20,652 nt of DNA, taken from positions 1 to 20,652 of the IMG/VR virus record IMGVR_UViG_3300033154_000173. One strand, written 5' to 3'. Position 1 is the first letter of the stretch, and each line of letters begins with the position of its first letter. The stretch comes from a virus. This document shows positions 1 to 18,988 of this stretch, one piece after another. A program made the position numbers and the translations under genes. The notes under the pieces are model-generated. The model worked only from the letters and a program-made list of their open reading frames with translations. It had not been told where the DNA came from and ran no database searches.

Positions 1-73
1 CAGTTCTCTTATTCTACGAAGAACACTCACTTCTCCACTTCACTAAGATTGACCCTTAAAGGAGGGCTATTTA

Positions 74-1903
74 ATGACTGAGACAACCGTAATTGAAAAG
101 GTATTATGCGCTGGAACAACCAAGAAAGGTCTGCCTTGCAAGAATCGCCCACAAATCGGAGGAACACTCTGCGGGCCACACGGCAAACAAATCGCCCTAG
201 ACCTAGCAGCCGAGCTATTCAAAAGCACCGCCATTGGCAAGTCTCACAACCGCCACGCGAAAACAGCTTCAAGCATCGTCCAGCTCAAAGAAGATGTGGA
301 CGAGCTGGCACAGAAAGTATTCGACAACGCAGAAGCAAACCCGCCATCAGACAAACAGCCGGACATCGTTTTTATCAGTGGCGACCGTGACAACGACCAC
401 CCCGAGCGCACCCACCAGGCTCTTAGCGAATTCTTCACAGACTATTGGCCAAAACCCTACGTGATCCTTGGAGACGCTAAAGGCACAGATGGAATCGTCG
501 AAGACTGGCTCACGACAAGCAACCTTAAATTCCAGATCGTTAAAGCGAATTGGGAGACTAAGGGTGGCGTATTCCGAAAGGGAGCTGGCATGGAGCGCAA
601 CGAAGAATGCGTTCTGCGATGTGCAACCCTAGTGGCCTTTAGTCACGAAGGCTACGGAGACTACGACAACGGAAAGCCCGTTGACAAAGGTACAACCCAA
701 GCCATTGAGAAGGCACGGGAAGCTCAGAAAAAAGTCGTCATCTTCAACCTCTCGGAATGGGACAAGGTTGAATTTGATTCAAGATTGGAAGACAGCATGG
801 CCAGCGTGACCGACGAAACAGCAGCCGAGGTCTTTCAACTACTGAAAGCCGAAGAATTCGCGTTTCGCCCCTCGCTAATCTCGCTTAACACCTCTAGCTG
901 GATCTACATCGGCAGAGGCAAACAGGGTACTGCAATGACGTTCCCTGGAATACTGGCACTCCCTCGCAAAATGTCACACGCTGACTTCAAGCGCAAGCTC
1001 TGGAAGCGCATGACCAGCCGCGAACCGCACCTTCTACGAGAACTAGCCCGAATCAGCGAGACTACTTCAATAGTCTGTAATTGCTTCGTCTCAAAAGACG
1101 AGCACGTTTGCCACGGCCACATAATAATCGCCGCTTCAAACTTCATGCACGGCAATGACGGTACGCCCTACCGAATGACCACCCAAGAGATCAAGGATTA
1201 CGACGCGGCTAACAATCCGGCGTTGTTGTCAACCCTGCCCCAATCCGAACGAACCAGGATCGTGGCTCGATACAGCGCCATGACCCGCAAAACCTGGGAG
1301 GTCCCTAGTTTCAGAACGATGAACGGCGGCAAGAAACTATCCAAGGCAACGCCACTCGTCAAGAATTCCAGGGTCGTCTATATCAACGGCGATCTTGAAC
1401 TTCCTGCGGTGGTAACGCATATCGAATACGGAACTGAGTGGATCGACGACCAGTATACAGGGCGACGACGCAAAGAGATTTTGAACTGCACCTTATTCAA
1501 CGAACCAATTAACGCTCATTTTACATACAGTGACAGCAACGCCGAGATGATCCGACGAGGCCATCGCATCCACGAAACTGGACTAACCTCGGAGGAAGGC
1601 ATTTTGCCGACAATCGCGCCCTTTATCAAGAAGGCGAAGAACACCAAGTCGGTAATGCCAGTCGACCTAACAACTGGTTGCCGTATCAAGTCTGGAATGC
1701 CAATCAGGATCATCGACCGAGCAACGGGCAAGGTTATGGACGTTGGAATCGCCAAGAGCATCAACTCGGCCTACTGGTACAAAGTCGTACCGCAAATGCC
1801 AGCGATTAAAGACGCCTGGATCGTCGAATATCACAGTATGCTAACTAACAAATCAGCCACCTGGAAAGGTGATGAGGGTACTCGTATCGAAACCGCCTAT
1901 TAA
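74..1903 (+). CDS. Multidomain Cys/His-knuckle + SLOG (DUF2493-like) + DUF4326-like protein
   Basis: This is a 609-residue protein of unknown role. Seen: residues 12-36 carry C12, C22, C33 and H36, a zinc-knuckle-like spacing. Residues about 96-228 look like a Rossmann-type SLOG domain of the DUF2493/YspA type: ISGDR near 101-105, ILGDAKGTDG at 131-140, ERN at 174-176 followed by ATLVAF, and KGTTQAI at 205-211. Residues about 275-355 resemble DUF4326: YIGRG at 278-282, then C335, C337 and the CHG of 346-348. The last 250 residues match nothing I recognise. The start is fixed by AAAGGAGG (58-65), 8 nt upstream. Known: SLOG domains are predicted to bind or process nucleotides or nucleotide-derived ligands. 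Inference: a cytosolic nucleotide- or NAD-metabolite-handling protein, perhaps anti-defence or metabolic. The domain calls are fairly secure; the function is not. Confidence 0.8.
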   Translation: MTETTVIEKVLCAGTTKKGLPCKNRPQIGGTLCGPHGKQIALDLAAELFKSTAIGKSHNRHAKTASSIVQLKEDVDELAQKVFDNAEANPPSDKQPDIVFISGDRDNDHPERTHQALSEFFTDYWPKPYVILGDAKGTDGIVEDWLTTSNLKFQIVKANWETKGGVFRKGAGMERNEECVLRCATLVAFSHEGYGDYDNGKPVDKGTTQAIEKAREAQKKVVIFNLSEWDKVEFDSRLEDSMASVTDETAAEVFQLLKAEEFAFRPSLISLNTSSWIYIGRGKQGTAMTFPGILALPRKMSHADFKRKLWKRMTSREPHLLRELARISETTSIVCNCFVSKDEHVCHGHIIIAASNFMHGNDGTPYRMTTQEIKDYDAANNPALLSTLPQSERTRIVARYSAMTRKTWEVPSFRTMNGGKKLSKATPLVKNSRVVYINGDLELPAVVTHIEYGTEWIDDQYTGRRRKEILNCTLFNEPINAHFTYSDSNAEMIRRGHRIHETGLTSEEGILPTIAPFIKKAKNTKSVMPVDLTTGCRIKSGMPIRIIDRATGKVMDVGIAKSINSAYWYKVVPQMPAIKDAWIVEYHSMLTNKSATWKGDEGTRIETAY

Positions 1904-1934: not shown

Positions 1935-2039
1935 ATGATGCCAGAATCTCGACGTAGCTATTGGATAATCTGCTTTATCATACTCGCCATTTCCTTCTAT
2001 ATCTTGATCAATACAGGCATACAGGTGGCAAGCGCATGA
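1935..2039 (+). CDS. Small single-pass membrane peptide (34 aa)
   Basis: This is a 34-codon ORF. The first residues include the charged stretch ESRRS; about 20 hydrophobic residues follow (WIICFIILAISFYILI, about 10-25), predicting one transmembrane helix with a short polar tail. AAAGGA (1922-1927) lies 7 nt before the ATG at 1935; a second ATG follows at 1938. Its stop overlaps the next start as ATGA (2036-2039), the usual arrangement for translational coupling. It lies just after the SLOG protein and a small GGCTC/GAGCC hairpin (1908-1921). The function is unknown. A role in lysis or membrane targeting would be a guess. Confidence 0.6.
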   Translation: MMPESRRSYWIICFIILAISFYILINTGIQVASA

Positions 2040-2494
2040 ACTTCCTAATCTATCACAACGAACATTTCCTAGAACACTCCTATACAATGTTACCAGGCGA
2101 ACGCTCTCCTCGTTACAAGCTCAACCTAGTTGCAAAGGTCGACGCCATCAACCTGGACGACGCCTATCGTGCAACTAATCACATTCGCGAATCATGGTGG
2201 CGTAACCCCGAGATGATCTGGTGGCGGCCGTCACGCTCAACCTCCGTTGGCGATGTCATATACAATATGTACACCGAGTCCTACCACAAAGTCGACTCCT
2301 TCGGATTCAAAAGACTCGAACCCTGGCACGAACTCACTACCTACTTTCTCGAAAAGGATCTGCCCGATGCCCCCCAAATCTTTGTTAATATATTTACTAT
2401 TGATCGCTCACCTACTGCTCGTCTCCGTAGACTGGTGCTCCGACAACTATACTGGATTCGAACACATCTCGAGCTGCCTTTTCTACGAGAATAG
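2036..2494 (+). CDS. Conserved phage-type protein of unknown function (152 aa)
   Basis: A soluble 152-residue protein that begins MNFLIYHNEHF and carries RSTSVGDVIYNMY near residues 66-78, then a GFKRLEPW stretch. I recall this kind of pattern (a YHN start, then R-S-x-SVGD and GF/GW-x-x-L) from uncharacterised phage and plasmid proteins, but I know of no assigned activity. I chose the ATG at 2036 rather than an upstream in-frame start because it overlaps the preceding stop (ATGA) and has GGTGG (2024-2028) 7 nt upstream. Its last 43 codons are overlapped in the +1 frame by a possible membrane ORF (2367-2522). An intrinsic terminator follows 34 nt after the stop. No catalytic motif is visible. 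Confidence 0.7.
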   Translation: MNFLIYHNEHFLEHSYTMLPGERSPRYKLNLVAKVDAINLDDAYRATNHIRESWWRNPEMIWWRPSRSTSVGDVIYNMYTESYHKVDSFGFKRLEPWHELTTYFLEKDLPDAPQIFVNIFTIDRSPTARLRRLVLRQLYWIRTHLELPFLRE

Positions 2495-2527: not shown

Positions 2528-2561
2528 AAGCGAGGGAGGTTCACGCCTCTCTCGCTTTTTT
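2528..2561 (+). terminator. Strong intrinsic terminator
   Basis: Arms 2528-2540 and 2545-2557 pair over 13 bp (AAGCGAGGGAGGT with GCCTCTCTCGCTT, including two G.T wobbles) around a TCAC loop. Six T residues (2556-2561) follow or overlap the 3' arm. It closes the accessory block (74-2522) and separates it from the repeat-rich region. Confidence 0.88.
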
Positions 2562-3089: not shown

Positions 3090-3271
3090 ACCGCCAAGCC
3101 CTCGGAACCACTCTGAGCCACTTGCCCACGCGAGAAATGTGGTATCATAAGCACATGAGAGAAAGATTAACCATTTCGCATAGTCATCTACTAGCTTCGC
3201 TTTAGCACATAAGAACCTCATTTGAGATTCTATTTGTATGCCCCAGGTATGCCCATTTCACAGGAGAAACC

Positions 3272-4600: not shown

Positions 4601-4644
4601 CCTGGTTGGACACACCCCTTGATGTCTATGCGAAGTAACACCGT

Positions 4645-4801
4645 GCTCTTTTTTATGAACGTGGGTTTTTGCTGTTTTACATGGGGTAGGGGTAGTTTGA
4701 CCAGGTTCTTTTCTATGAACACGGCCAGGTTCTTTTCTATGAACACGGTGACGGTCAATTACCAGGGGTCAGGGTGGGTCACCAGGTTCATAGAAAAGAG
4801 C
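4645..4801. repeat. Four-copy iteron-like repeat upstream of terL
   Basis: Four copies of a CTTTTYTATGAAC-centred motif: 4645-4664 (GCTCTTTTTTATGAACGTGG), two exact 24-bp tandem units at 4701-4724 and 4725-4748 (CCAGGTTCTTTTCTATGAAC plus ACGG), and an inverted copy at 4782-4801. The inverted copy matches the first at 18 of 20 positions. TCTTTTCTATGAAC (4731-4744) and GTTCATAGAAAAGA (4786-4799) can pair perfectly. A TATAAA (4804-4809) just after the inverted copy could be a -10 box, but no good -35 is present. The stretch 4528-4847 holds nothing else I can call besides the terminator. It could be a regulator or replication-protein array, or a packaging site. Confidence 0.8.
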
Positions 4802-4847
4802 ACTATAAAGACTAAGAAAGATATAGAAACACATATGGGAAATTTTG

Positions 4848-6314
4848 ATGCTTAATCAATCTGTTAGTAACTTACAGGAAGCGCGGAAATTAAGGACGAG
4901 CGACGAATACAAGAACGCGATTACCAAATTGGTAGCAGCCGCCAACCGAGCTGGATCGCCGCCCGAACAGATTCGTAATTTCGCGCTAGGCGGCTACACG
5001 CCAACAGAAGAACAATGGATATTTCATTCGGCTGCTCGTCTAGCAGATCGGCCGGATGGACCAAGCCACATTGCAATGGGAGGTCCACGAGGAGGAGCCA
5101 AGTCGCATGCCATTATGTGCCAGGCTGCATTAGATGATTGCCAGCGTTTTCCAGGCTTAGAGGTTTTGTACCTGCGTCTTATTCAGAAGGCCGGTCGAAA
5201 GGCGCTGGACCAGCTTCGCGCAAAGACTCTTATGGGTTTGCCCCATAAATACAACCGAAATGAGGGACTGATCTCCTTCCCGAACAGTTCATCTATCGTC
5301 GTCGGCCATTTTAAGAACGAGGGTGACATCGACAAATACATCGGAATTGAGTTTGATGTAATGATAGTTGAAGAAAGAACTCAGCTATCAAGAATGAAAA
5401 TAGACCAGCTTTTTGGCTCATTGAGAACTAGCAAGGAATTATGGAGGACAAGATCGTACAACGCCGCTAATCCAGGCGGGATAGGCCATCAGGAATTCAG
5501 ATCGGATTTCGTTCTTCCGGCGAGGGAGCACCGGCAGCATTTGACCAAGACGTTCTATATGAATGCCGACTGGCGCAATAATCCCTTTATTCAGGATGAG
5601 TACAAGGAGTATTTGCTAGGATTGACTGGAATACTCGGAGAGATGTGGCGTGATGGTAATTGGGACATTGGATCAGGAACCTATTTTATAAACTGGCAAC
5701 CGAAGGTCCATGTAATTGAGCCAATGAAAAGAATTCCGCTTGAGTGGAAAGTGTGGGTTAGTCTCGATTGGGGATGGACCCATCCACTTAGCATACAATG
5801 GCATACGCTTAGACCAGATGGCGCGATCGTTACCGTAGATGAGTACAAGACTCAACGAACACTTGTCGCTGATGTGGTGGAAGAAATAGAAAGGCGAACC
5901 CGTAAATGGGATCGGAAAATGTCAGACATAGTTGGTTGGGTGGCCGGACACGACATATACGCTAATCGTGGAAGTCATCCGGACGGACTAACCATTGCAG
6001 ATCAATTCTCGAAATTGGGGATACGCTGGACTAGGGCGAATGTTGATCGGATCAATGGCGCAGCAGAAATAACAAGACGGTTAGGAAGTCCAAGAGAAAA
6101 CAAACCAACATCCTGGTTCGTTACTAAAAATTGCCAAGAATTGATATATACTATGCCAAATATGATCATTGATGATCGGAGGCCGGAAGATGTCCTCAAA
6201 GTGGATGCAAACGAATTTGGAGAAGGGGGGGATGACAGCTATGATTGTGCAAGATATGGCATTATGGTTAGGCCTCTCTTTATTCAAAAACAGGGCTTTG
6301 CGTGGAAATTCTAA
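4848..6314 (+). CDS. terL: Terminase large subunit
   Basis: A 488-residue packaging ATPase-nuclease. Numbering from the ATG at 4848: YTPTEEQW (50-57) is the adenine-binding Q-type motif; GGPRGGAKS (78-86) is Walker A with K85; FDVMIVEE (169-176) is Walker B with the catalytic acidic pair; SYNAANPGG (203-211) is the coupling motif. The RNase H-like nuclease follows with VSLDWGW (D307) and a C-terminal GGDDSYD (460-466) acidic cluster. The length is normal for the family and all motifs are intact. A TTG directly upstream (4845) is an alternative start; GGGA at 4837-4840 suits the ATG. It acts with the small subunit at the portal. Its end overlaps the next gene by 13 nt. Confidence 0.95.
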   Translation: MLNQSVSNLQEARKLRTSDEYKNAITKLVAAANRAGSPPEQIRNFALGGYTPTEEQWIFHSAARLADRPDGPSHIAMGGPRGGAKSHAIMCQAALDDCQRFPGLEVLYLRLIQKAGRKALDQLRAKTLMGLPHKYNRNEGLISFPNSSSIVVGHFKNEGDIDKYIGIEFDVMIVEERTQLSRMKIDQLFGSLRTSKELWRTRSYNAANPGGIGHQEFRSDFVLPAREHRQHLTKTFYMNADWRNNPFIQDEYKEYLLGLTGILGEMWRDGNWDIGSGTYFINWQPKVHVIEPMKRIPLEWKVWVSLDWGWTHPLSIQWHTLRPDGAIVTVDEYKTQRTLVADVVEEIERRTRKWDRKMSDIVGWVAGHDIYANRGSHPDGLTIADQFSKLGIRWTRANVDRINGAAEITRRLGSPRENKPTSWFVTKNCQELIYTMPNMIIDDRRPEDVLKVDANEFGEGGDDSYDCARYGIMVRPLFIQKQGFAWKF

Positions 6315-6757
6315 ACAAACCAACCGTGTCTAACAAAGAGCTTCAAACATTTCTCCAGGCTGCTAGTTGTGCGGCCTACATGGAAAAACACCTTGGCGAG
6401 ATATGGGCGCACACGAAACTCGCGATCAAACTTCCCCCAAACACTTCTTTCGTACACCTAAAACAAGACAAAAGCAATCTCGTAGGCATGAACTTTATGG
6501 AGGAACGCCTTCTTCCAGTCAAATACAATATCTACATTGATATTAAGAAAAAAGACAACCTCTACAAAGGAGGTTGGCTGATGCTCTACACTTTCGATCC
6601 TCCAACAAGACAGTTTTTCTACTGGATTACCGAAATGGTAACAGTATACGAAAAGGGAACAGACTATGATTTTACCCAGGCAAGTAAATTTGGCAGAATT
6701 GGCTTTTCTCATGCATCAGGCAGAGGAGGAGTTGGAGTTACAAGCACGAATAATTAA
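6302..6757 (+). CDS. Unknown phage protein between terL and portal (151 aa)
   Basis: A 151-codon ORF with a GTG start at 6302, overlapping the terL stop by 13 nt; AGGG (6292-6295) is 6 nt upstream. Another in-frame GTG is at 6326. The middle is rich in beta and aromatic residues (KGGWLMLYTFDPPTRQFFYW). The last 30 codons overlap the portal gene in another frame and read as low-complexity SHASGRGGVGVTSTNN, suggesting that part is a by-product of the overlap. I do not recognise the family. Its position suggests a head or packaging accessory, but nothing in the sequence proves that. Confidence 0.65.
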   Translation: MEILNKPTVSNKELQTFLQAASCAAYMEKHLGEIWAHTKLAIKLPPNTSFVHLKQDKSNLVGMNFMEERLLPVKYNIYIDIKKKDNLYKGGWLMLYTFDPPTRQFFYWITEMVTVYEKGTDYDFTQASKFGRIGFSHASGRGGVGVTSTNN

Positions 6758-8348
6758 AGGTCGTGAGTTATACGCCGGATACATGAGTTCGGAGTTGTCC
6801 GAACAAGCAGCAGACATCTACCTCGGAGCCGAGGCCGACGATATTGAAGGCATAAACTTAATGGCCATCGCCATTAACACTACGGTTAGGCGAATCACAC
6901 TAAACGGATTCGAGGTAGTGGCGCCCATCGCCGAGGGGGAAGAAGGAGAAGCCGTTTCACCAGACGAAGAAGGTAGTTCGTCCGTCCAAGCAATCGAAGC
7001 CTGGATCAAAAAGTTTTACGAGGTGAACAGGATAGAGGCGATTAGCCGTGACCTTCAGAGAATGACAGAAAGAGACGGAGAAGCCTTTCTCTTAATCGAC
7101 TATGACCTAGAATATATCTATCCAAGAGATGTCGCCCAGGTCGGGATCGCAAGACTGTACATTAGCGAAAGATACACTGATGCAGGGACATCGTGGGGAG
7201 AATTTCAAGGTTCTAATGAAGGATGCAAAGCTCATTACCGTCATGGAGATCCCAACCAGCCGCTTGACATGGTTTCTAAGCGATGGATTGAGCAGTATTG
7301 GGAAGAAGAAGAAATAAAAGCTCGTCAGCGAATGACCCTTTACATAGCGGAGGTCGGCTCGGAACTTGTTGGGGACATCGTACCGGCAAGAATTGAAAAG
7401 TACGCAATGAACGAGGCCGGAGAGTGGGAGGAGTATCGTGACGAAGGAGATGAAGAATGGCCGCTTTGGTGGACAGAGAACGGAACCGATGCTGGAGAGA
7501 GTTTGCCGATACCAGTTATCCATTTCCGGAACGAGGAGTTGGAGCCAGGACAAAAGAAAATTTGGGGGCTACAGGCGTCAATGGACGAGCTGTGGATCTC
7601 CTTTATGAATGCACAGCTTGTGGCGGGTCACCAGCTACTGGTAGCCTTTGGTTTTTTCCCAACGACTGACGGACTCCCTCCGGAAGAAGATGGAAGTAAC
7701 TTATTGACGGTTTCGCCGAGGCAGATTATCGGCTCGGGAGCTACAAGCTCCAAAGAAGCCTCACTAACAGCTATTCAACCACCCTCTGCCGAGCCACTTC
7801 TACAGGGGCTGGACAAAACCGCGATCTACGCCAGTTTCGTAGGCAGTTTGCCGGTCAGCAACTTCATTTTCTCGAAAGCAGTTGCTTCTTCCGAAACATT
7901 GAAACAGGGTGACGCTGAATTAGTCGCTAGAATCAATGAACTAATTGGGCTATGGACTTTTTCTTGGTCTGCGGCCATGGACATCGCAAGAAAAATGGAG
8001 ATTCTGTATGGTGGAAACACCATGGACGAAGCACCGGCCATCTTACCTCAATGGGCGTCACCAGAAAGACGCGATATGAACCATCTGACCAAGGAAGCGA
8101 ACGCCAAACGAGCGGCAGGAGTGCCAGAAATAATCATCCTGCAAGAAGTATGGGGCTATACGCCGGAACAGGCTGCAACCTACCTCGCAGAAAACCTCTC
8201 AGAACACAAACAAGGGATCGGACCAGAAGCGATTACGATCTTGCAAGCTCAGATTGCTGGCGCGGGAGAAGAACCAGGCGCACCGGCCACGGACGAGGAA
8301 CACGGCAATGCCGCAAGTGAACAATTAACCACTAACGCCAGTCCATGA
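6666..8348 (+). CDS. Portal protein (SPP1 gp6-like type)
   Basis: A 560-residue portal subunit. Portals form the dodecameric ring at the capsid vertex through which DNA is packaged and to which the tail connects. Seen: an N-terminal helical segment with a GRELYAGYM pattern common near portal starts, INTTVRRITLNGFEV, and MTERDGEAFLLIDYD at residues 133-147, the beta stretch typical of SPP1-type portals. The C-terminus is a flexible, acidic and Ala-rich tail. AAGGGA (6653-6658) lies about 8 nt before the ATG at 6666, so I keep this start although it overlaps the upstream gene by 92 nt. An internal ATG at 6711 has no ribosome binding site. The position after terL and before scaffold and capsid supports the call. 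Confidence 0.88.
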   Translation: MILPRQVNLAELAFLMHQAEEELELQARIIKGRELYAGYMSSELSEQAADIYLGAEADDIEGINLMAIAINTTVRRITLNGFEVVAPIAEGEEGEAVSPDEEGSSSVQAIEAWIKKFYEVNRIEAISRDLQRMTERDGEAFLLIDYDLEYIYPRDVAQVGIARLYISERYTDAGTSWGEFQGSNEGCKAHYRHGDPNQPLDMVSKRWIEQYWEEEEIKARQRMTLYIAEVGSELVGDIVPARIEKYAMNEAGEWEEYRDEGDEEWPLWWTENGTDAGESLPIPVIHFRNEELEPGQKKIWGLQASMDELWISFMNAQLVAGHQLLVAFGFFPTTDGLPPEEDGSNLLTVSPRQIIGSGATSSKEASLTAIQPPSAEPLLQGLDKTAIYASFVGSLPVSNFIFSKAVASSETLKQGDAELVARINELIGLWTFSWSAAMDIARKMEILYGGNTMDEAPAILPQWASPERRDMNHLTKEANAKRAAGVPEIIILQEVWGYTPEQAATYLAENLSEHKQGIGPEAITILQAQIAGAGEEPGAPATDEEHGNAASEQLTTNASP

Positions 8349-9877: not shown

Positions 9878-10981
9878 ATGGCACGAATAGGCTTTGGCGA
9901 TCTCAAAGATCAGGGACTTCACCCTCTTTGGGACTTGGCCGAATTAAAGAAAATGGAACTGGAAGACGGAACCTCTATTGAGCAGATGCTCCGAGAGGTT
10001 CAAGATGTAGCGTCTGCCGTTTCCGGTGAAATCACTCGATTACCGCATTATTCCACACTTTTCAACGTCCAAGACGCTCCGGAAATGGAATACGGCACTT
10101 TCACTGGTGGTGGCATTCAGGAAATGACCGAATACAGCGTTCCCGATCCGTACAAGGGCAAAACGACCGGACACATGTTGCCGATCAAGATGTTCACCCG
10201 TGCAATCGGCTGGACATTCCTCGCCCTCGAAAGACGCCGACGCAATCAGTTGGAAGCGGATCTCAATGTCGTAGTAGACGACATTCGCAACCATTATCAG
10301 CAAAAAGTTTTGACCCGTTTCTTCAAAATGGAAGCGGACGCAGTTGGTGATACGGCTGGCGCATCTGTTCCTTTCGCAGATGGTGGGACAGGCGACGCGA
10401 ACTGGATTCCTCTAAGATCGCCCGATGGCGTAGAGTTTGACGCCGCGCACGATCATTATCTTCGAGTAGCGACTCTCGACACGACAGCTATCGTAGCTGC
10501 GGTCAAGCACCTCAAAGAACACGGACATCAACCTCCGTATGACTTGATTGGCGCAGAGTTGGACGCCGCGACATATATAGCCCTAGACGAGTGGAGAGCA
10601 CCCGTTTGGCCTGGGATTATCTATCGCGACACCAGCGCGGGAATGGATCGAGCCTCCCTCAACGGAATTGAGGAATACGATGGCTTCATGGAAACAGTCG
10701 CCGGGATAGTCAAGGTTTGGTTTACGCCAAGATTGCCGACTGGCTACTTCGGTATCTACAAGGACTACGGCGCTGGCGCAGATGGCGCACCATGCGCGAT
10801 GAGAATCAATCCGAAGCTAGGCTTTGGCTGGCAAATGGTTCCTGGTAACTACGTGAACAGTCCGCTTAATCTCGGAGTCCTTCGTTCTGAGTTCGACCTC
10901 GGTGTCGGCAAAGACCGAACGAACGGTGTGTTCACCAAGGTGTTCGCTGACGGTGACTACGTAACTCCAGATATCGGCTAA
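9878..10981 (+). CDS. Major capsid protein
   Basis: A 367-residue shell protein. It starts without an obvious scaffold-type delta domain, in keeping with the separate scaffold gene. The N-arm is helical (LWDLAELKKMELEDG), followed by beta/loop segments with PDPYKGKTTGHMLPIKMF and a long helix with LERRRRNQLEADLNVVVDDI; this general order suits an HK97-like fold, but no diagnostic motif exists. GGAGG before the ATG is strong. Position after scaffold and decoration, size, and the downstream connector genes make the call reliable. A terminator (11214-11248) follows one small gene later, as often seen after highly expressed capsid genes. Confidence 0.88.
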   Translation: MARIGFGDLKDQGLHPLWDLAELKKMELEDGTSIEQMLREVQDVASAVSGEITRLPHYSTLFNVQDAPEMEYGTFTGGGIQEMTEYSVPDPYKGKTTGHMLPIKMFTRAIGWTFLALERRRRNQLEADLNVVVDDIRNHYQQKVLTRFFKMEADAVGDTAGASVPFADGGTGDANWIPLRSPDGVEFDAAHDHYLRVATLDTTAIVAAVKHLKEHGHQPPYDLIGAELDAATYIALDEWRAPVWPGIIYRDTSAGMDRASLNGIEEYDGFMETVAGIVKVWFTPRLPTGYFGIYKDYGAGADGAPCAMRINPKLGFGWQMVPGNYVNSPLNLGVLRSEFDLGVGKDRTNGVFTKVFADGDYVTPDIG

Positions 10982-11259: not shown

Positions 11260-11676
11260 ATGGACACCCTGCTAGAAGTATTAACCGAAGCTCTAATCAA
11301 AGCAGCCATCATCATAATCCCCATCTTACTTGCCGTTCTCACCACCTACCTCGTCAAATTCCTACAGGCGCAAATGGTAAAGCTGGAACGCGAGGGCAGG
11401 GATCTTGAACTTCTACTGCTACAAGAGTTTACGCAAATAGCCGTACTCGCCGCCGAGCAGCTATTAGCGCATGACGAAGAAGATAACGAACGATTCGAGT
11501 TCGCTTCTGAATCACTGAAGAAACTGGCCTCCGAAGCGGGTATTCCGATAACCGAGGACCAAATTCTCTTGCTGATAGAAGGAACTGTACACGCATTACA
11601 AAACGAGCTTCCTCGCCCCACTGAGCATTATTACATCGAAGGCACTTCAGAGGAAGATGGAAGCGATGCCACCTAA
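11260..11676 (+). CDS. LLH-family-type holin
   Basis: A 138-residue protein with one N-terminal transmembrane helix (about residues 11-34, AAIIIIPILLAVLTTYLV) followed by a charged coiled-coil (KFLQAQMVKLEREGRDLELL) and a soluble end with AAEQLL, FEFASESLKKLASEAG and ILLLIEGTVHALQNEL. This order and the A-A-E-Q-L, Y/F-x-x-A and I-E-x-x-V patterns are those of the LL-H phage holin family. Holins permeabilise the membrane to start lysis. AAGGAGA is upstream. It is oddly placed between capsid and connector genes. No endolysin is visible in the window, so a structural or membrane role cannot be excluded. Confidence 0.72.
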   Translation: MDTLLEVLTEALIKAAIIIIPILLAVLTTYLVKFLQAQMVKLEREGRDLELLLLQEFTQIAVLAAEQLLAHDEEDNERFEFASESLKKLASEAGIPITEDQILLLIEGTVHALQNELPRPTEHYYIEGTSEEDGSDAT

Positions 11677-14075: not shown

Positions 14076-14594
14076 ATGACAAAAACAGCCAATAGTTATA
14101 TCTCCGATCAAGGAGAACTTGTCTTAACCGTAGACTCCGTACTAACGGACATAGCGTACTTCACCACCGCAGAACCAGTTATTTTTGACGGTGTGCTGAG
14201 AAAGCTCGAGGAAACGTCTCCCAAAACCAGGGAATATTCAGAGGTCTTTGTAACCGGAAGTACATCGCCTATCAAGACGATGAGTTCCAAGCAGACCGCA
14301 ACAGAATGGACCTTGACCATACTTGACGACTACAGTGCCGGAAACACTGGCGAATGGGGAACCGACGAACTCACCGCAGTTGAAACATTCCAGCAGATCA
14401 TGGACAACGCCTTAGTAATAGCGGACCTGGCTTGTACACCGGCCGGAGGCGCGACAGGCGACATCGAAACCACGCTGGTCAACGTCGACGTAAAATCCGT
14501 AACCCACCCACCGATTGACTCTGACGCGACGAACCCGCAAGAAGTAGTAATCATGCTCGTGGTCGAAAGCTACACCAAGGCCGCACATAGTTAA
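14076..14594 (+). CDS. Major tail tube protein, copy 1
   Basis: A 172-residue beta-rich protein that by position and size forms the tail tube. It shares nearly its whole sequence plan with the next gene: ANSYISDQGELV at the start, EETSPKTREYSEVFV in the middle, MSSKQTATEWTLTILDDYS, and a last 45 residues matching at 42 positions. The region near 88-125 is more variable. The start follows GAGG 10-14 nt upstream. A long variable loop may face outward. It is distinct from sheath proteins, which are much longer. Confidence 0.75.
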   Translation: MTKTANSYISDQGELVLTVDSVLTDIAYFTTAEPVIFDGVLRKLEETSPKTREYSEVFVTGSTSPIKTMSSKQTATEWTLTILDDYSAGNTGEWGTDELTAVETFQQIMDNALVIADLACTPAGGATGDIETTLVNVDVKSVTHPPIDSDATNPQEVVIMLVVESYTKAAHS

Positions 14595-14607
14595 ATAGGA
14601 AAACAAT

Positions 14608-15135
14608 ATGCCAGATAAAACAGCCAATAGTTATATATCTGATCAAGGCGAATTAGTATTCGTCATCAGCGCAGCAGCCGTGACCGCAATCGCCGCCATA
14701 ACCACAGAAGAAGATATGATCCTTGATCTCGTTCTGCGGAAGTTTGAAGAAACGTCCCCTAAGACCAGGGAATATTCCGAGGTGTTTGTTGCAGGAGACG
14801 TCAGTCCCATAAAGACTATGAGTTCCAAGCAAACCGCAACGGAATGGACCTTGACCATACTCGACGACTATTCAAGCGGCGGGACACCGGAACTCGGTGG
14901 TACTCCTTGGACCACAGCCGTAGAGCTTTTCCAAGAATATATGGATGCAGCGTATACTCTTGAGGAATTGTCACTCACTCCCGCAGGTGGAGTGGCCGGA
15001 GACATCGAAACCACATTGGTGAACGTAGATGTGAAGTCGATTACCCACCCGCCGATTGACTCTGACGCAACCAACCCGCAAGAAGTGACAATTATGCTGG
15101 TCGTGGAAAGCTACACAAAGGCCGCACATGGTTAA
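14608..15135 (+). CDS. Major tail tube protein, copy 2 (paralogue)
   Basis: A 175-residue paralogue of the preceding gene. The block EETSPKTREYSEVFV...LDDYS matches at 40 of 43 positions and the last 45 residues at 42 of 45, while residues about 17-40 and 88-125 differ. Synonymous differences are frequent, so the duplication is not recent and both copies seem under selection. Only 13 nt separate the two genes. Its stop overlaps the chaperone start (ATGGTTAA, 15128-15135). Either both proteins form a mixed tube or one caps or replaces the other; the sequence does not decide. Confidence 0.75.
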   Translation: MPDKTANSYISDQGELVFVISAAAVTAIAAITTEEDMILDLVLRKFEETSPKTREYSEVFVAGDVSPIKTMSSKQTATEWTLTILDDYSSGGTPELGGTPWTTAVELFQEYMDAAYTLEELSLTPAGGVAGDIETTLVNVDVKSITHPPIDSDATNPQEVTIMLVVESYTKAAHG

Positions 15136-15553
15136 AAGCGAATCCATAGAGCTGCCAGAGTTCCTAATGGCATTGCCCGAAGATTTGCGCCCCACTCGTC
15201 CTAAAGTAAACCGGCTGGTCTTCCCATCACCGTTGAAGGAATGGCCTGGAACAGTCACTACCGCATGTTATCTGAGCGCAGAAGAATATCATGTGTGGTG
15301 GACTAATTCAGGGGACGGCCAGCCAGAGGACGACAAACGGCATTGGGCGTACTTCGATTGGGAGACGCGGTTCCACTTCGCGAAAGCCTGGGCTATCGAG
15401 GGTCTTGACAACGATCAACTAAAAACGGATCCAAAAGATATTCCAGACACGCGCCTGATAATATGGTACGTCACAGTAACCAATACCATTATTCAGGAGG
15501 CTACGTTACTCCCAAACTCGCGAAGGCCGTCGAGCGAAACTTTGATCACGTAA
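15128..15553 (+). CDS. Tail assembly chaperone (gpG-like, 0 frame)
   Basis: A 141-residue protein between the tube and tape measure genes, the position of lambda gpG-type tail chaperones that bind the tape measure during tail assembly. It has an N-terminal SIELPEFLMALPEDLRP stretch and a Trp-rich centre (YHVWWTNSG, HWAYFDWETRF). A -1 frameshift site near its end (15511-15517) would join residues 1-130 to a 110-residue extension encoded by the overlapping downstream ORF. It overlaps the upstream gene by 8 nt. Sequence similarity within this group is always low, so the call rests on position and frameshift architecture. Confidence 0.75.
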   Translation: MVKSESIELPEFLMALPEDLRPTRPKVNRLVFPSPLKEWPGTVTTACYLSAEEYHVWWTNSGDGQPEDDKRHWAYFDWETRFHFAKAWAIEGLDNDQLKTDPKDIPDTRLIIWYVTVTNTIIQEATLLPNSRRPSSETLIT

Positions 15554-15849
15554 AAGAATCGCAAGATGGCCAGCGTCACAAGGACAATGTGGATCCGCTA
15601 CCGTGGCCGCACGAACTTGGTTTGAGTATCATAGATCAGGCAACAAACAGTCCGAGATTTTGGCCCTGGCCGACGAGAGATTGGCTATTCAACAAACCAG
15701 CCCTTGATGCCATAAACATTGTCTCCTTCATGCAAAGATTACTTAAAAAATCAGGCGAGCTTTGGACAGATAATGATAACAGCTTCTATCGAGCGATTCA
15801 CGCAAAGCCAGAGGTAGTGCAACATGGGCGCAATAACGTCACATTATAA
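15463..15849 (+). CDS. Tail assembly chaperone extension (gpT-like, -1 frame)
   Basis: This ORF lies in the -1 frame relative to the chaperone gene and overlaps its last 91 nt. It has no ribosome binding site at its first ATG (15463), as expected if it is reached by frameshifting. From the slip site onward it reads CTC-GCG-AAG (LAKAVERNFDHV), continues through PWPHELGLSIIDQ, and stops at 15847-15849, overlapping the tape measure start by 26 nt. The predicted fusion is 130 + 110 = 240 residues. In lambda-like systems the fused form (gpGT) links chaperone to tube protein. The ORF's 5' part upstream of the slip site is probably not translated in this frame. Confidence 0.72.
   Translation: MVRHSNQYHYSGGYVTPKLAKAVERNFDHVKESQDGQRHKDNVDPLPWPHELGLSIIDQATNSPRFWPWPTRDWLFNKPALDAINIVSFMQRLLKKSGELWTDNDNSFYRAIHAKPEVVQHGRNNVTL
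15495..15517 (+). promoter_or_regulatory. Programmed -1 frameshift site with upstream Shine-Dalgarno-like stimulator
   Basis: The heptamer C CCA AAC (15511-15517) sits in the 0 frame as ctC-CCA-AAC, the X XXY YYZ form, and slips to CCC-AAA in the -1 frame. AGGAGG (15495-15500) lies exactly 10 nt upstream. The -1 frame is open from 15409 to 15849. A weak CTCG/CGAG stem (15517-15520 with 15531-15534) follows; no strong downstream structure was found by eye. Known: a Shine-Dalgarno-like sequence about 10 nt upstream stimulates -1 shifting in E. coli dnaX. Confidence 0.75.
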
Positions 15850-18800
15850 TCTTGCAATAATAATCCAAGAGCAACGGCGCGGAAACGCAGTTCGGGATCT
15901 TAAACAAGATCTAACGCTAGTCAACCAACGTCTTGACAAACACGGAGTTGCGGCCGGACAAGCTGCGTCTAAGACAGAACAGTTTGTCACAAAGACGAAA
16001 CGGCTAGGCCAAGCTCTCAGAAAAGTTCTAGTACCAGCATTGCTTCTGGCCGCAACCGCAGTTGCAAAGCTCGGCACGGATGGAGTCAAAGCCTTTGCTC
16101 AGTTCGACAAAGGGATGCAGGAGGTTTTTACACTCATACCGGATAGATCAAAGGAGATGGAGGACGAATTAACCAAGGGCATTCAAAATGTGGGCAAGCA
16201 ATTCGGATACCTAACCGAAGAAACAATACCTGCTTTGTACCAAGCCCTATCAGCGGGTATACCAGAAGAAAATGCCATAACAGCAGTAGAATTAGCGGCC
16301 AAGGCCGCAAAAGCGGGAGCCTCGGATCTAGAGAGTACAATGCGTATTGGCATGGCCGTTGTGAATGCCTACGGTGGAGAAGTCTATACGCTTGGCGAAG
16401 CCTACGATCTAATATTTCAATTAGTCGATAAAGGAGTTCCACGACTGTCTGATTGGGGGAACACCCTGCAAGACGTTATCAGCATCGCGTCAGAAGCCAG
16501 AACCCCATTTGAGGACATCGTGGCCGCACTCGCCGTTATGACTCGCCAGGGCGACACCGCGGCAGAGTCAGCCGAATTACTTGGCTTTATCCTCATGCAG
16601 ATGCAGATTGAGGGAACGACCGCAGCCGGAGTCTTTATGGAGGCAACCGGACAAAGCTATCGCGAATGGATCGCCACAGGACACGGCCTCGTAGAAGGGC
16701 TTCAAATGATAGACCAATACGCGATCGATACAGGCCAACATCTTGACAGCATGATTGGTGGTAGCTCTAACTTCTATCGAGATCAACAAGCAGCTCGTGG
16801 AACAATGGAGCTGACCGGAATACACATGCAGGAGCTAATAGATCTCGCTAAGCTTGTAGGCGAAGAACAAGAAGGCTCGATGGAGAAGGCATACGGAACG
16901 GCCTCCGACAACGCACAGCAGAGCCTGGATGAAATGGCCGCGAAATGGGAAATCATAAAAATAAAGATAGGCGAAGCGATTTGGGAGCAGGAAATATTCT
17001 TTGGTTTTACCGGAGAGGAACTATTTGATAGCGCAGGAACTGTCTTGGACTACGCCACAGACGATCTAGGGGACCAGTTAATAGGCAACCTGGAATCAGC
17101 CATAGGCGAAATAAAAGACAGGAATATGCTCGAGGAGATAGCAGAAGCCTGGGTGTCAGAAGATAGAACGATAGAAATACCGTTCTTTCCAGACTGGGAA
17201 CTATTTGAGGAAACAACGGCAGAAGGAAAAGAAATACTAGCGCGAGAACTAGCCCAATACTATGGTCAATACGAGGATTATTCTCGAGCCATACGGAAAT
17301 TGGGATTAGTAGAACAATACCGACTCGATCCTGGCCTTCTTCAGCAAACAACAGGTGATCCACTAGGCGAATGGGCAAAGAAAAGACACAAAGAAAATGC
17401 AGAACTGACGTCCCAAATACAAGAGTATTACAACGCTGTCTTTATACTCCAAAGTGAAGAAGAATTGAACATGCTTAATCTCAAGCAGGTCAATCAAGAA
17501 ATACAGCAAGAGAATTTAGAAAAGGAAGCGAGTTTACAAAGACAGGCAGAGTACAACGAAGAAAATCTGTTCTTTTTTGACTCATTTTATGCAACACAAC
17601 AATCTACCGTGGATTTGCTAGGAATGTATAACGATGGCCTAATAACCCAAACGGAATATTGGGAACAATTAGGAGTTTACGGGAAGGAGTTCGGGGAGGT
17701 TGTTCATTGGATCGCCGTTGACACTCGCGCCATGACTTCTGAAATGAGCAGCTTTATTTCCATTGTGGGCACACAAGGAGCGAAATTATACGATGGCTAT
17801 GACGCACTCGCCGAGGCTTCCGGAGAATGGACTCAGATTCTCACAAACAACGCTGGCGAAATCGACGCCGTAATGGAACAGTTGGGAACTGATCTAAGCG
17901 ACGACGAGCAAGGTGTCATGCGCGGAATATTGGATACCGCCGAAGAAGGTGGAACCGCATGGTTGGCCGCATGGAGAGCCTTGCAAACAGACTTGACCCA
18001 AACTCAACGAAACGAACTCATAGCGCGAATGGCCGATCTGCAAGCAGCAGACGGAGTTTACAAAGGCGTTTGGACCGGCAACAAAAAGGCCGCAGAGGAC
18101 GCAGAGGCTGATATACTGGCAGCTCTCGAAGCAATAGAGACTGGTTGGAACAACATGGTAATCGAAGTATTTGCGGCCAATCTCGCCCTGGATTCAAGAC
18201 TGGCCGGAACGATAGAAGCGCAAATTGCAGAAATTAGACTTCAAGAAGCAATGGGCGAAATAAAACCAGAAGTGGCCGAATCACAAATAACTTATTTGGA
18301 AAAAGCGAGTCAGTTAAAAGAGATACATGACGAAATGTACACCGCTTACATGGCAGACGGAGTGCTTGCGCAAGAAGAAGCCGCAAAAATGGCAGTCGCA
18401 GAAGACACAGTGTTCTTGTCAGCCGAAATGACAACCAAAGAATTAAAGAAACAAATAGACGCAGCGACAGCTTACGAAGGCGGCTACCCGTATGTAGTAG
18501 GGCTTATCAGAGATGATCTTAATCCAGCATTAGATGATACGGCAAATAAGGCTAAGAAACTTACAGAAAAGCCAATCGTGCCGGAGGTCGGCATGGACAA
18601 AGTGGCATTTGACACAAAATACAAATTCTTGATGGAACAAATAGACGAAGCAGAGGGACCGCATGAGGTCGAATTCTACATGAGCCAAATGCCGACGCCA
18701 CCGGCAACTCCCGATGCCAGGGAAGCAGGTGGAACCGGAGGCACTTACAGGACTGTTCCAGGCGGCTATCCGAACGACTCCTACCTCCTCGGCCTAACAA

Positions 18801-18988
18801 GTCGCGAGGAATACTCGGTTTTAACGCCAGGCCAAGCTAGAGGGCAGGGCGGGGGAGGTCGGCAGTACATTGACCAAAGCCACCACACAACCATTATTAA
18901 CAATCACACTCGCGCAGCAGCCGCCGTGTCCAGAGCCTATCTAGACACTTTGTACGATCAAAGATTAAGACGATTTGTAGGAGAATAA
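15824..18988 (+). CDS. Tail tape measure protein
   Basis: A 1054-residue protein, by far the longest here. It sets tail length and is ejected with the DNA. Seen: a coiled-coil N-terminus (DLKQDLTLVNQRLDKH), a hydrophobic stretch (VLVPALLLAATAVAKLG, about 68-84), then a TP901-type core at about 88-300 with AFAQFDKGMQEVFTLIPD, ETIPALYQALSAGIPEENA and LAAKAAKAGASDLE. The rest is mainly long helices with few Cys, ending in Gly-rich and HHTTIINNH segments. At about 1.5 Angstrom per residue the tail would be near 158 nm (inference). GAGGT (15811-15815) is 8 nt upstream of the ATG. It overlaps the chaperone extension by 26 nt. No lytic transglycosylase or peptidase motif was noticed. Confidence 0.9.
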   Translation: MGAITSHYNLAIIIQEQRRGNAVRDLKQDLTLVNQRLDKHGVAAGQAASKTEQFVTKTKRLGQALRKVLVPALLLAATAVAKLGTDGVKAFAQFDKGMQEVFTLIPDRSKEMEDELTKGIQNVGKQFGYLTEETIPALYQALSAGIPEENAITAVELAAKAAKAGASDLESTMRIGMAVVNAYGGEVYTLGEAYDLIFQLVDKGVPRLSDWGNTLQDVISIASEARTPFEDIVAALAVMTRQGDTAAESAELLGFILMQMQIEGTTAAGVFMEATGQSYREWIATGHGLVEGLQMIDQYAIDTGQHLDSMIGGSSNFYRDQQAARGTMELTGIHMQELIDLAKLVGEEQEGSMEKAYGTASDNAQQSLDEMAAKWEIIKIKIGEAIWEQEIFFGFTGEELFDSAGTVLDYATDDLGDQLIGNLESAIGEIKDRNMLEEIAEAWVSEDRTIEIPFFPDWELFEETTAEGKEILARELAQYYGQYEDYSRAIRKLGLVEQYRLDPGLLQQTTGDPLGEWAKKRHKENAELTSQIQEYYNAVFILQSEEELNMLNLKQVNQEIQQENLEKEASLQRQAEYNEENLFFFDSFYATQQSTVDLLGMYNDGLITQTEYWEQLGVYGKEFGEVVHWIAVDTRAMTSEMSSFISIVGTQGAKLYDGYDALAEASGEWTQILTNNAGEIDAVMEQLGTDLSDDEQGVMRGILDTAEEGGTAWLAAWRALQTDLTQTQRNELIARMADLQAADGVYKGVWTGNKKAAEDAEADILAALEAIETGWNNMVIEVFAANLALDSRLAGTIEAQIAEIRLQEAMGEIKPEVAESQITYLEKASQLKEIHDEMYTAYMADGVLAQEEAAKMAVAEDTVFLSAEMTTKELKKQIDAATAYEGGYPYVVGLIRDDLNPALDDTANKAKKLTEKPIVPEVGMDKVAFDTKYKFLMEQIDEAEGPHEVEFYMSQMPTPPATPDAREAGGTGGTYRTVPGGYPNDSYLLGLTSREEYSVLTPGQARGQGGGGRQYIDQSHHTTIINNHTRAAAAVSRAYLDTLYDQRLRRFVGE

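Follow-up and report, generated by a model that had tools for sequence, protein, structure and literature searches.

An inverted and extended SLOG-DUF4326 fusion protein encoded by a tailed-phage fragment

What might a phage do with a single polypeptide that carries a Cys/His knuckle, a SLOG domain, a DUF4326-like domain and a long C-terminal region? This question is raised by an open reading frame (ORF) in the window analysed here, which is the whole stretch of DNA of 20,652 nucleotides. A first reading of the sequence without database searches (hereafter the sequence-only reading) had proposed a fusion of this kind, which might make, sequester or break down a nucleotide- or NAD-derived metabolite for anti-defence or host takeover. 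We follow the protein from its gene context to its domains and its possible role.

The fusion gene and its phage context

As a virus record of 20.6 kb, the window represents a fragment of a tailed phage, with genes for TerL (4845-6314), portal (6666-8348), capsid (9878-10981) and tape measure (15824-18988) proteins. Among the best matches listed, TerL shares only about 23-29% identity with named phages. A twin contig in IMG/VR (IMGVR_UViG_3300033153_006512, 27.6 kb) encodes TerL and capsid proteins identical to those of the window, the comparison being made on these proteins only. This contig begins near window position 3240 and does not carry the fusion gene; therefore, it gives no information on the conservation of that gene.

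The fusion ORF spans exactly 74-1903 on the plus strand, as the sequence-only reading had it, and encodes 609 aa in the order Cys/His knuckle, helix, SLOG, DUF4326 and orphan C-terminus. It has an ATG start, no internal stop and a GC3 of 0.59. A ribosome-binding site (AAAGGAGGG, 58-66, plus strand), recognised by its sequence about 7 nt upstream of the ATG at 74, supports this start. The gene is followed on the same strand by a 34-aa ORF with a single hydrophobic stretch (1935-2039), whose stop overlaps the start of the next ORF (ATGA). The latter (2036-2494, plus strand) encodes 152 aa and is marginally YodL-like (E 0.1). Further downstream, a strong intrinsic terminator with a 13 bp stem and a T-tail (2528-2557, plus strand) closes the gene group that contains the fusion. 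Because these two ORFs and then the terminator come after it, the fusion gene is among the last members of its gene group, which is cut off by the window edge and lies apart from the packaging genes. TerL is downstream of the fusion gene, and the packaging genes are separated from it by the terminator and about 700 bp.

Several other features of this phage were observed. In the intergenic stretch 2636-2785, between the terminator and a TerS-like ORF, a 50-nt unit occurs three times in tandem, with 88-96% identity to the first copy. Just upstream of TerL, at 4641-4803, a TTCTTTTCTATGAACACGG-like element occurs in direct and inverted copies, and is possibly a packaging or regulatory site. An LLH-family holin (PF09682, 8e-16) is encoded at 11260-11676, between the capsid and tail genes. 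Adjacent similar ORFs of 172 and 175 aa (14076-15135) indicate an apparent tandem duplication of a tail-tube-like gene. The two ORFs just before the tape measure gene (15128-15849) overlap by about 90 nt, as is typical where tail assembly chaperones are produced by frameshifting. The twin contig encodes a 667-aa protein made of many 'FAGTAALVTTTPDI'-like repeat copies (L014:17319-19322).

Domains of the fusion protein

The Cys/His knuckle (104-193, plus strand) has the pattern C12-x9-C22-x10-C33-x2-H36. All four residues named in the sequence-only reading are present, but the match to a known family is weak, as Pfam PF19067 (DUF5763) aligned with this segment at E 0.017 and 15 bits, below its cut-off of 26.3. 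PHROG 10899, annotated as terminase small subunit, matches the knuckle residues at E 7.7e-4. The knuckle probably binds zinc. In the structure model, a predicted long helix (aa 62-88; 257-337, plus strand) joins the knuckle to the SLOG domain.

The SLOG domain (aa 97-226; 362-751, plus strand) is of the YAcAr/DUF2493 (YspA) type. The assignment that the sequence-only reading had based on motifs (ILGDAKGTDG, ERN and KGTTQAI) is borne out by several comparisons. PHROG 289 matches at E 2.5e-12, and Pfam YAcAr matches the segment aa 94-234 at E 1.3e-4 (22.1 bits, under the cut-off of 28.2). A viral SLOG profile, built from 101 non-redundant IMG/VR sequences fetched by DNA motif, scored the fusion protein at 47.1 bits versus at most 8.3 bits in 5000 shuffles. 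In a 35-row alignment, the invariant residues R105, G133, A135, G137, D139, W160, G172, R175, N176, G206 and T207 are all kept, the rows having been retrieved with a motif that already contained some of these residues. The alignment with viral SLOGs also revealed inserts in the fusion protein before AGxxRN and before KGT. In whole-protein numbering, the SLOG motifs begin at residues 133 (GDAKGTD), 174 (ERN) and 205 (KGTT), and those of the next domain at 278 (YIGRG), 335 (CNC) and 346 (CHG).

Structure prediction, which the sequence-only reading had suggested for this region, was carried out as two models, because MAFFT misaligned SLOG and DUF4326 fragments when they were combined. AlphaFold2, run with the viral SLOG alignment, models this domain as alternating strands and helices in a five-stranded Rossmannoid fold, most of the core reaching pLDDT 91-97. 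Foldseek searches against viral proteins gave many YspA/DUF2493 matches (target TM up to 0.88). Against solved structures, the model matched Moco carrier, ShosA, DprA and ThsA (8btp, E 3e-3), where DprA and ShosA were among the top matches and DprA ranked level with ThsA. On sequence and predicted fold combined, the identity of aa 97-226 as SLOG is certain. The motif GGxGTxxE is the catalytic motif of LOG-type phosphoribohydrolases. It is absent from the SLOG domain of the fusion protein and from all 101 compared viral SLOGs.

The third domain (aa 267-356; 872-1141, plus strand) is a divergent DUF4326. It keeps YIGRG, CxC and CHG, with 4 additional residues separating CxC from CHG, and lacks GN. 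Pfam DUF4326 (PF14216) gave no match on the whole 609-aa protein and a match at E 0.006 on the segment (17.6 bits, under the cut-off of 25). The six-frame Pfam family search missed the domain, and hence a negative from it is not conclusive. The closest relative found is a stand-alone DUF4326 gene of another phage contig (L139:2942-3394), located between portal-like and head-like genes, whose product is a Pfam DUF4326 member (E 1.2e-15). A phmmer comparison aligned the segment with this protein over about 85 residues at E 4.6e-7 (30.5 bits). In addition, a profile of 81 viral DUF4326 sequences scored the fusion protein at 16.2 bits versus at most 8.0 bits in 5000 shuffles. These sequences were fetched by a pattern requiring YIGRG, CxC and CHG but not GN, so the invariance of the three motifs across 33 aligned rows follows from the selection, whereas the match across the rest of the domain is unaffected. 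By sequence comparison, homology of the region to the family is well supported, in agreement with the YIGRG...CNC...CHG signature pointed out by the sequence-only reading, which here belongs to a divergent member. On the rhodanese-phosphatase-like fold of the family, the model was less telling, with part of the core at a pLDDT of about 90 and no meaningful match in the PDB fold search (best E 0.48). DUF488-N3a (PF22751) was considered as an alternative identity, but its match (E 0.0013 on the segment) is sub-cut-off and covers the C-terminal half of the DUF4326 region, and YIGRG favours DUF4326.

All 81 compared viral DUF4326s have GN(P) after YIGRG, 80 of them in regular register and one after a 2-residue insert, and it is missing in the fusion protein. 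Catalysis by this domain is possibly altered or lost. The missing GN offers a natural test of whether DUF4326 is an enzyme or a binder. Elsewhere, DUF4326 was seen in larger settings: a phage contig with a 2052-aa open frame has it within a very large multidomain protein (L006:20-6178), and an 877-aa open frame has it behind a helicase-like region and before a probable second Rossmann-type domain (L146:13322-13603).

Beyond DUF4326, the chain is predicted to continue as a helical stretch (aa 368-404; 1175-1285, plus strand), which has fair confidence in both models. The remaining orphan region (aa 405-609; 1286-1900, plus strand) has a low-confidence model, with pLDDT mostly below 50 and perhaps small beta units at aa 451-474 and 543-585; their SH3-like barrel look is an impression only, on which we base no claim. 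As the sequence-only reading anticipated for its 250 C-terminal residues, this part of about 200-250 aa found no match in Pfam, PHROGs, PDB sequences, or tblastn searches of phages and plasmids. It is the only part of the fusion that might turn out to be truly new.

Proposed role and competing explanations

We tentatively favour a role as a phage accessory protein whose SLOG and DUF4326 domains bind or clear an ADP-ribose-type host alarm nucleotide, a reading that we rate somewhat below an even chance. The SLOG domain would bind a small molecule of the adenine-nucleotide or ADP-ribose type, which the divergent DUF4326 would help to bind or process. A host alarm nucleotide, e.g., a cyclic ADP-ribose variant, could thereby be sequestered or destroyed, while the knuckle and C-terminus would probably supply oligomerisation or targeting. 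ThsA is a cADPR-sensing SLOG protein, and its presence among the fold matches, together with the SLOG identity and fold, argues for this reading. So do the homology to DUF4326, the recurrent pairing of the two families described below, and the literature, in which viral SLOG and DUF4326 proteins are predicted to process ADP-ribose derivatives and to counter NAD/ADP-ribose signals (PMC9503650, PMC7824862). The ligand, the anti-defence role and any catalysis are proposed here from family knowledge and from that prediction.

Several observations count against the alarm-nucleotide reading. Pfam recognised no Macro, NADAR, Nudix or TIR genes among the window proteins scanned, about one third of the protein has no assigned domain, the DNA-binding protein DprA ranks level with ThsA, and both GGxGTxxE and the GN of DUF4326 are absent. 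With these two motifs lacking, the protein is as likely to be a binder, as sponge or sensor, as it is to be an enzyme. Hence, the suggestion in the sequence-only reading of an anti-defence protein acting on a nucleotide or NAD metabolite fits the published prediction (PMC9503650, PMC7824862), but its simple enzyme version is weakened.

An alternative explanation, possible but doubtful, is that the protein is directed at DNA: the knuckle and a DprA-like SLOG would bind DNA, DUF4326 would act in DNA-end processing or base modification, and the protein would protect phage DNA or aid replication or packaging. DprA-type SLOGs bind DNA, and the prominence of DprA and ShosA among the fold matches is in line with this explanation, as are the resemblance of the knuckle to one in a terminase-small-subunit PHROG, the position upstream of TerL and the joining of DUF4326 to a helicase-like region in L146. 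DUF4326 has also been tied to replication and restriction-modification in one report (PMC7824862). However, the SLOG sequence is of the YAcAr/DUF2493 rather than the DprA type, no DNA-modification gene was seen in the scanned parts of the window, and the terminator and intervening DNA set the gene apart from the packaging genes.

It is unlikely, though conceivable, that the protein is an effector gated by a sensor, in which nucleotide sensing by SLOG, with a degenerate DUF4326, would activate the C-terminus for superinfection exclusion or an anti-host function. Sensor-effector SLOG fusions are on record (PMC9503650), each of the two domains lacks a motif that an active enzyme should carry, and the C-terminus is large and found no relatives. 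Yet, no effector domain was recognised, the model of the C-terminus is too poor for assignment, and PADLOC detected no defence match in the 609-aa fusion protein. Very unlikely is a degenerate or structural protein whose domains persist as ligand-free folds or scaffold, as the loss of GN and the lack of the LOG motif could suggest, since every invariant SLOG residue and the Cys/His motifs of DUF4326 are kept, which points to constraint on a pocket.

A bolder proposal, which we consider quite unlikely, would make this the first of a novel class of ligand-gated phage proteins. SLOG and a repurposed, catalytically changed DUF4326 would form a composite nucleotide sensor or sponge, and the C-terminus linked to them would represent a domain family of its own with anti-defence or anti-host action.

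Comparison with known fusions

Searches for relatives of the whole protein by tblastn gave only weak SLOG matches in phages and none in plasmids. Peptide scans of IMG/VR and GTDB genomes found none either, a weak test because exact 8-mers were needed. DNA patterns of the DUF4326 variant had no match in genomes, and their matches in IMG/VR, considered as relatives, were instead ordinary DUF4326 proteins with inserts.

The pairing of the two families recurs. In IMG/VR, at least 19 ORFs carry both SLOG and DUF4326, with DUF4326 first in 19 of 19, the reverse of the order in the window; the loci were picked by a separate motif per domain, so that this count is bound to the sample and rare SLOG-first fusions could have escaped. 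At least 5 further loci carry the domains as separate ORFs. The reversed domain order in the window suggests that SLOG and DUF4326 were fused more than once. Repeated joining, if true, would support a functional partnership of the two.

Compared to known systems, the window protein shares its SLOG fold with ThsA of Thoeris (SIR2-SLOG), but ThsA is a host defence effector with SIR2, which the window protein lacks. Its SLOG sequence and fold are those of the YspA/YAcAr/DUF2493 phage proteins (PF10686, PHROG 289). However, these are usually single-domain proteins, and the window SLOG has the two inserts. The DUF4326-SLOG proteins of IMG/VR (L148, L154, L172, L180, L216 and others) combine the same two families in one ORF, but they have DUF4326 first, are about 210-290 aa long without extra domains, and keep GN in those inspected. 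ARQ95298.1 of Bradyrhizobium phage BDU-MI-1 is a close relative of these DUF4326-first fusions and shares the two domain families with the window.

SLOG-DUF4326 fusions in phages have already been published, as have fusions to Macro and NADAR (PMC9503650, PMC7824862). Like the window protein, the published viral SLOG-DUF4326 fusions join both domains in one phage polypeptide with an inferred link to NAD/ADP-ribose signals. The window protein is set apart from them by its N-terminal knuckle, long orphan C-terminus, lost GN and SLOG-first order, although the order in the published ones is not visible in the text consulted. Hence, the architecture is already known in kind, and the window protein is an inverted, extended version of it, which joins a published set of phage fusions predicted to be counter-measures to NAD-derived immune signals (PMC9503650, PMC7824862).
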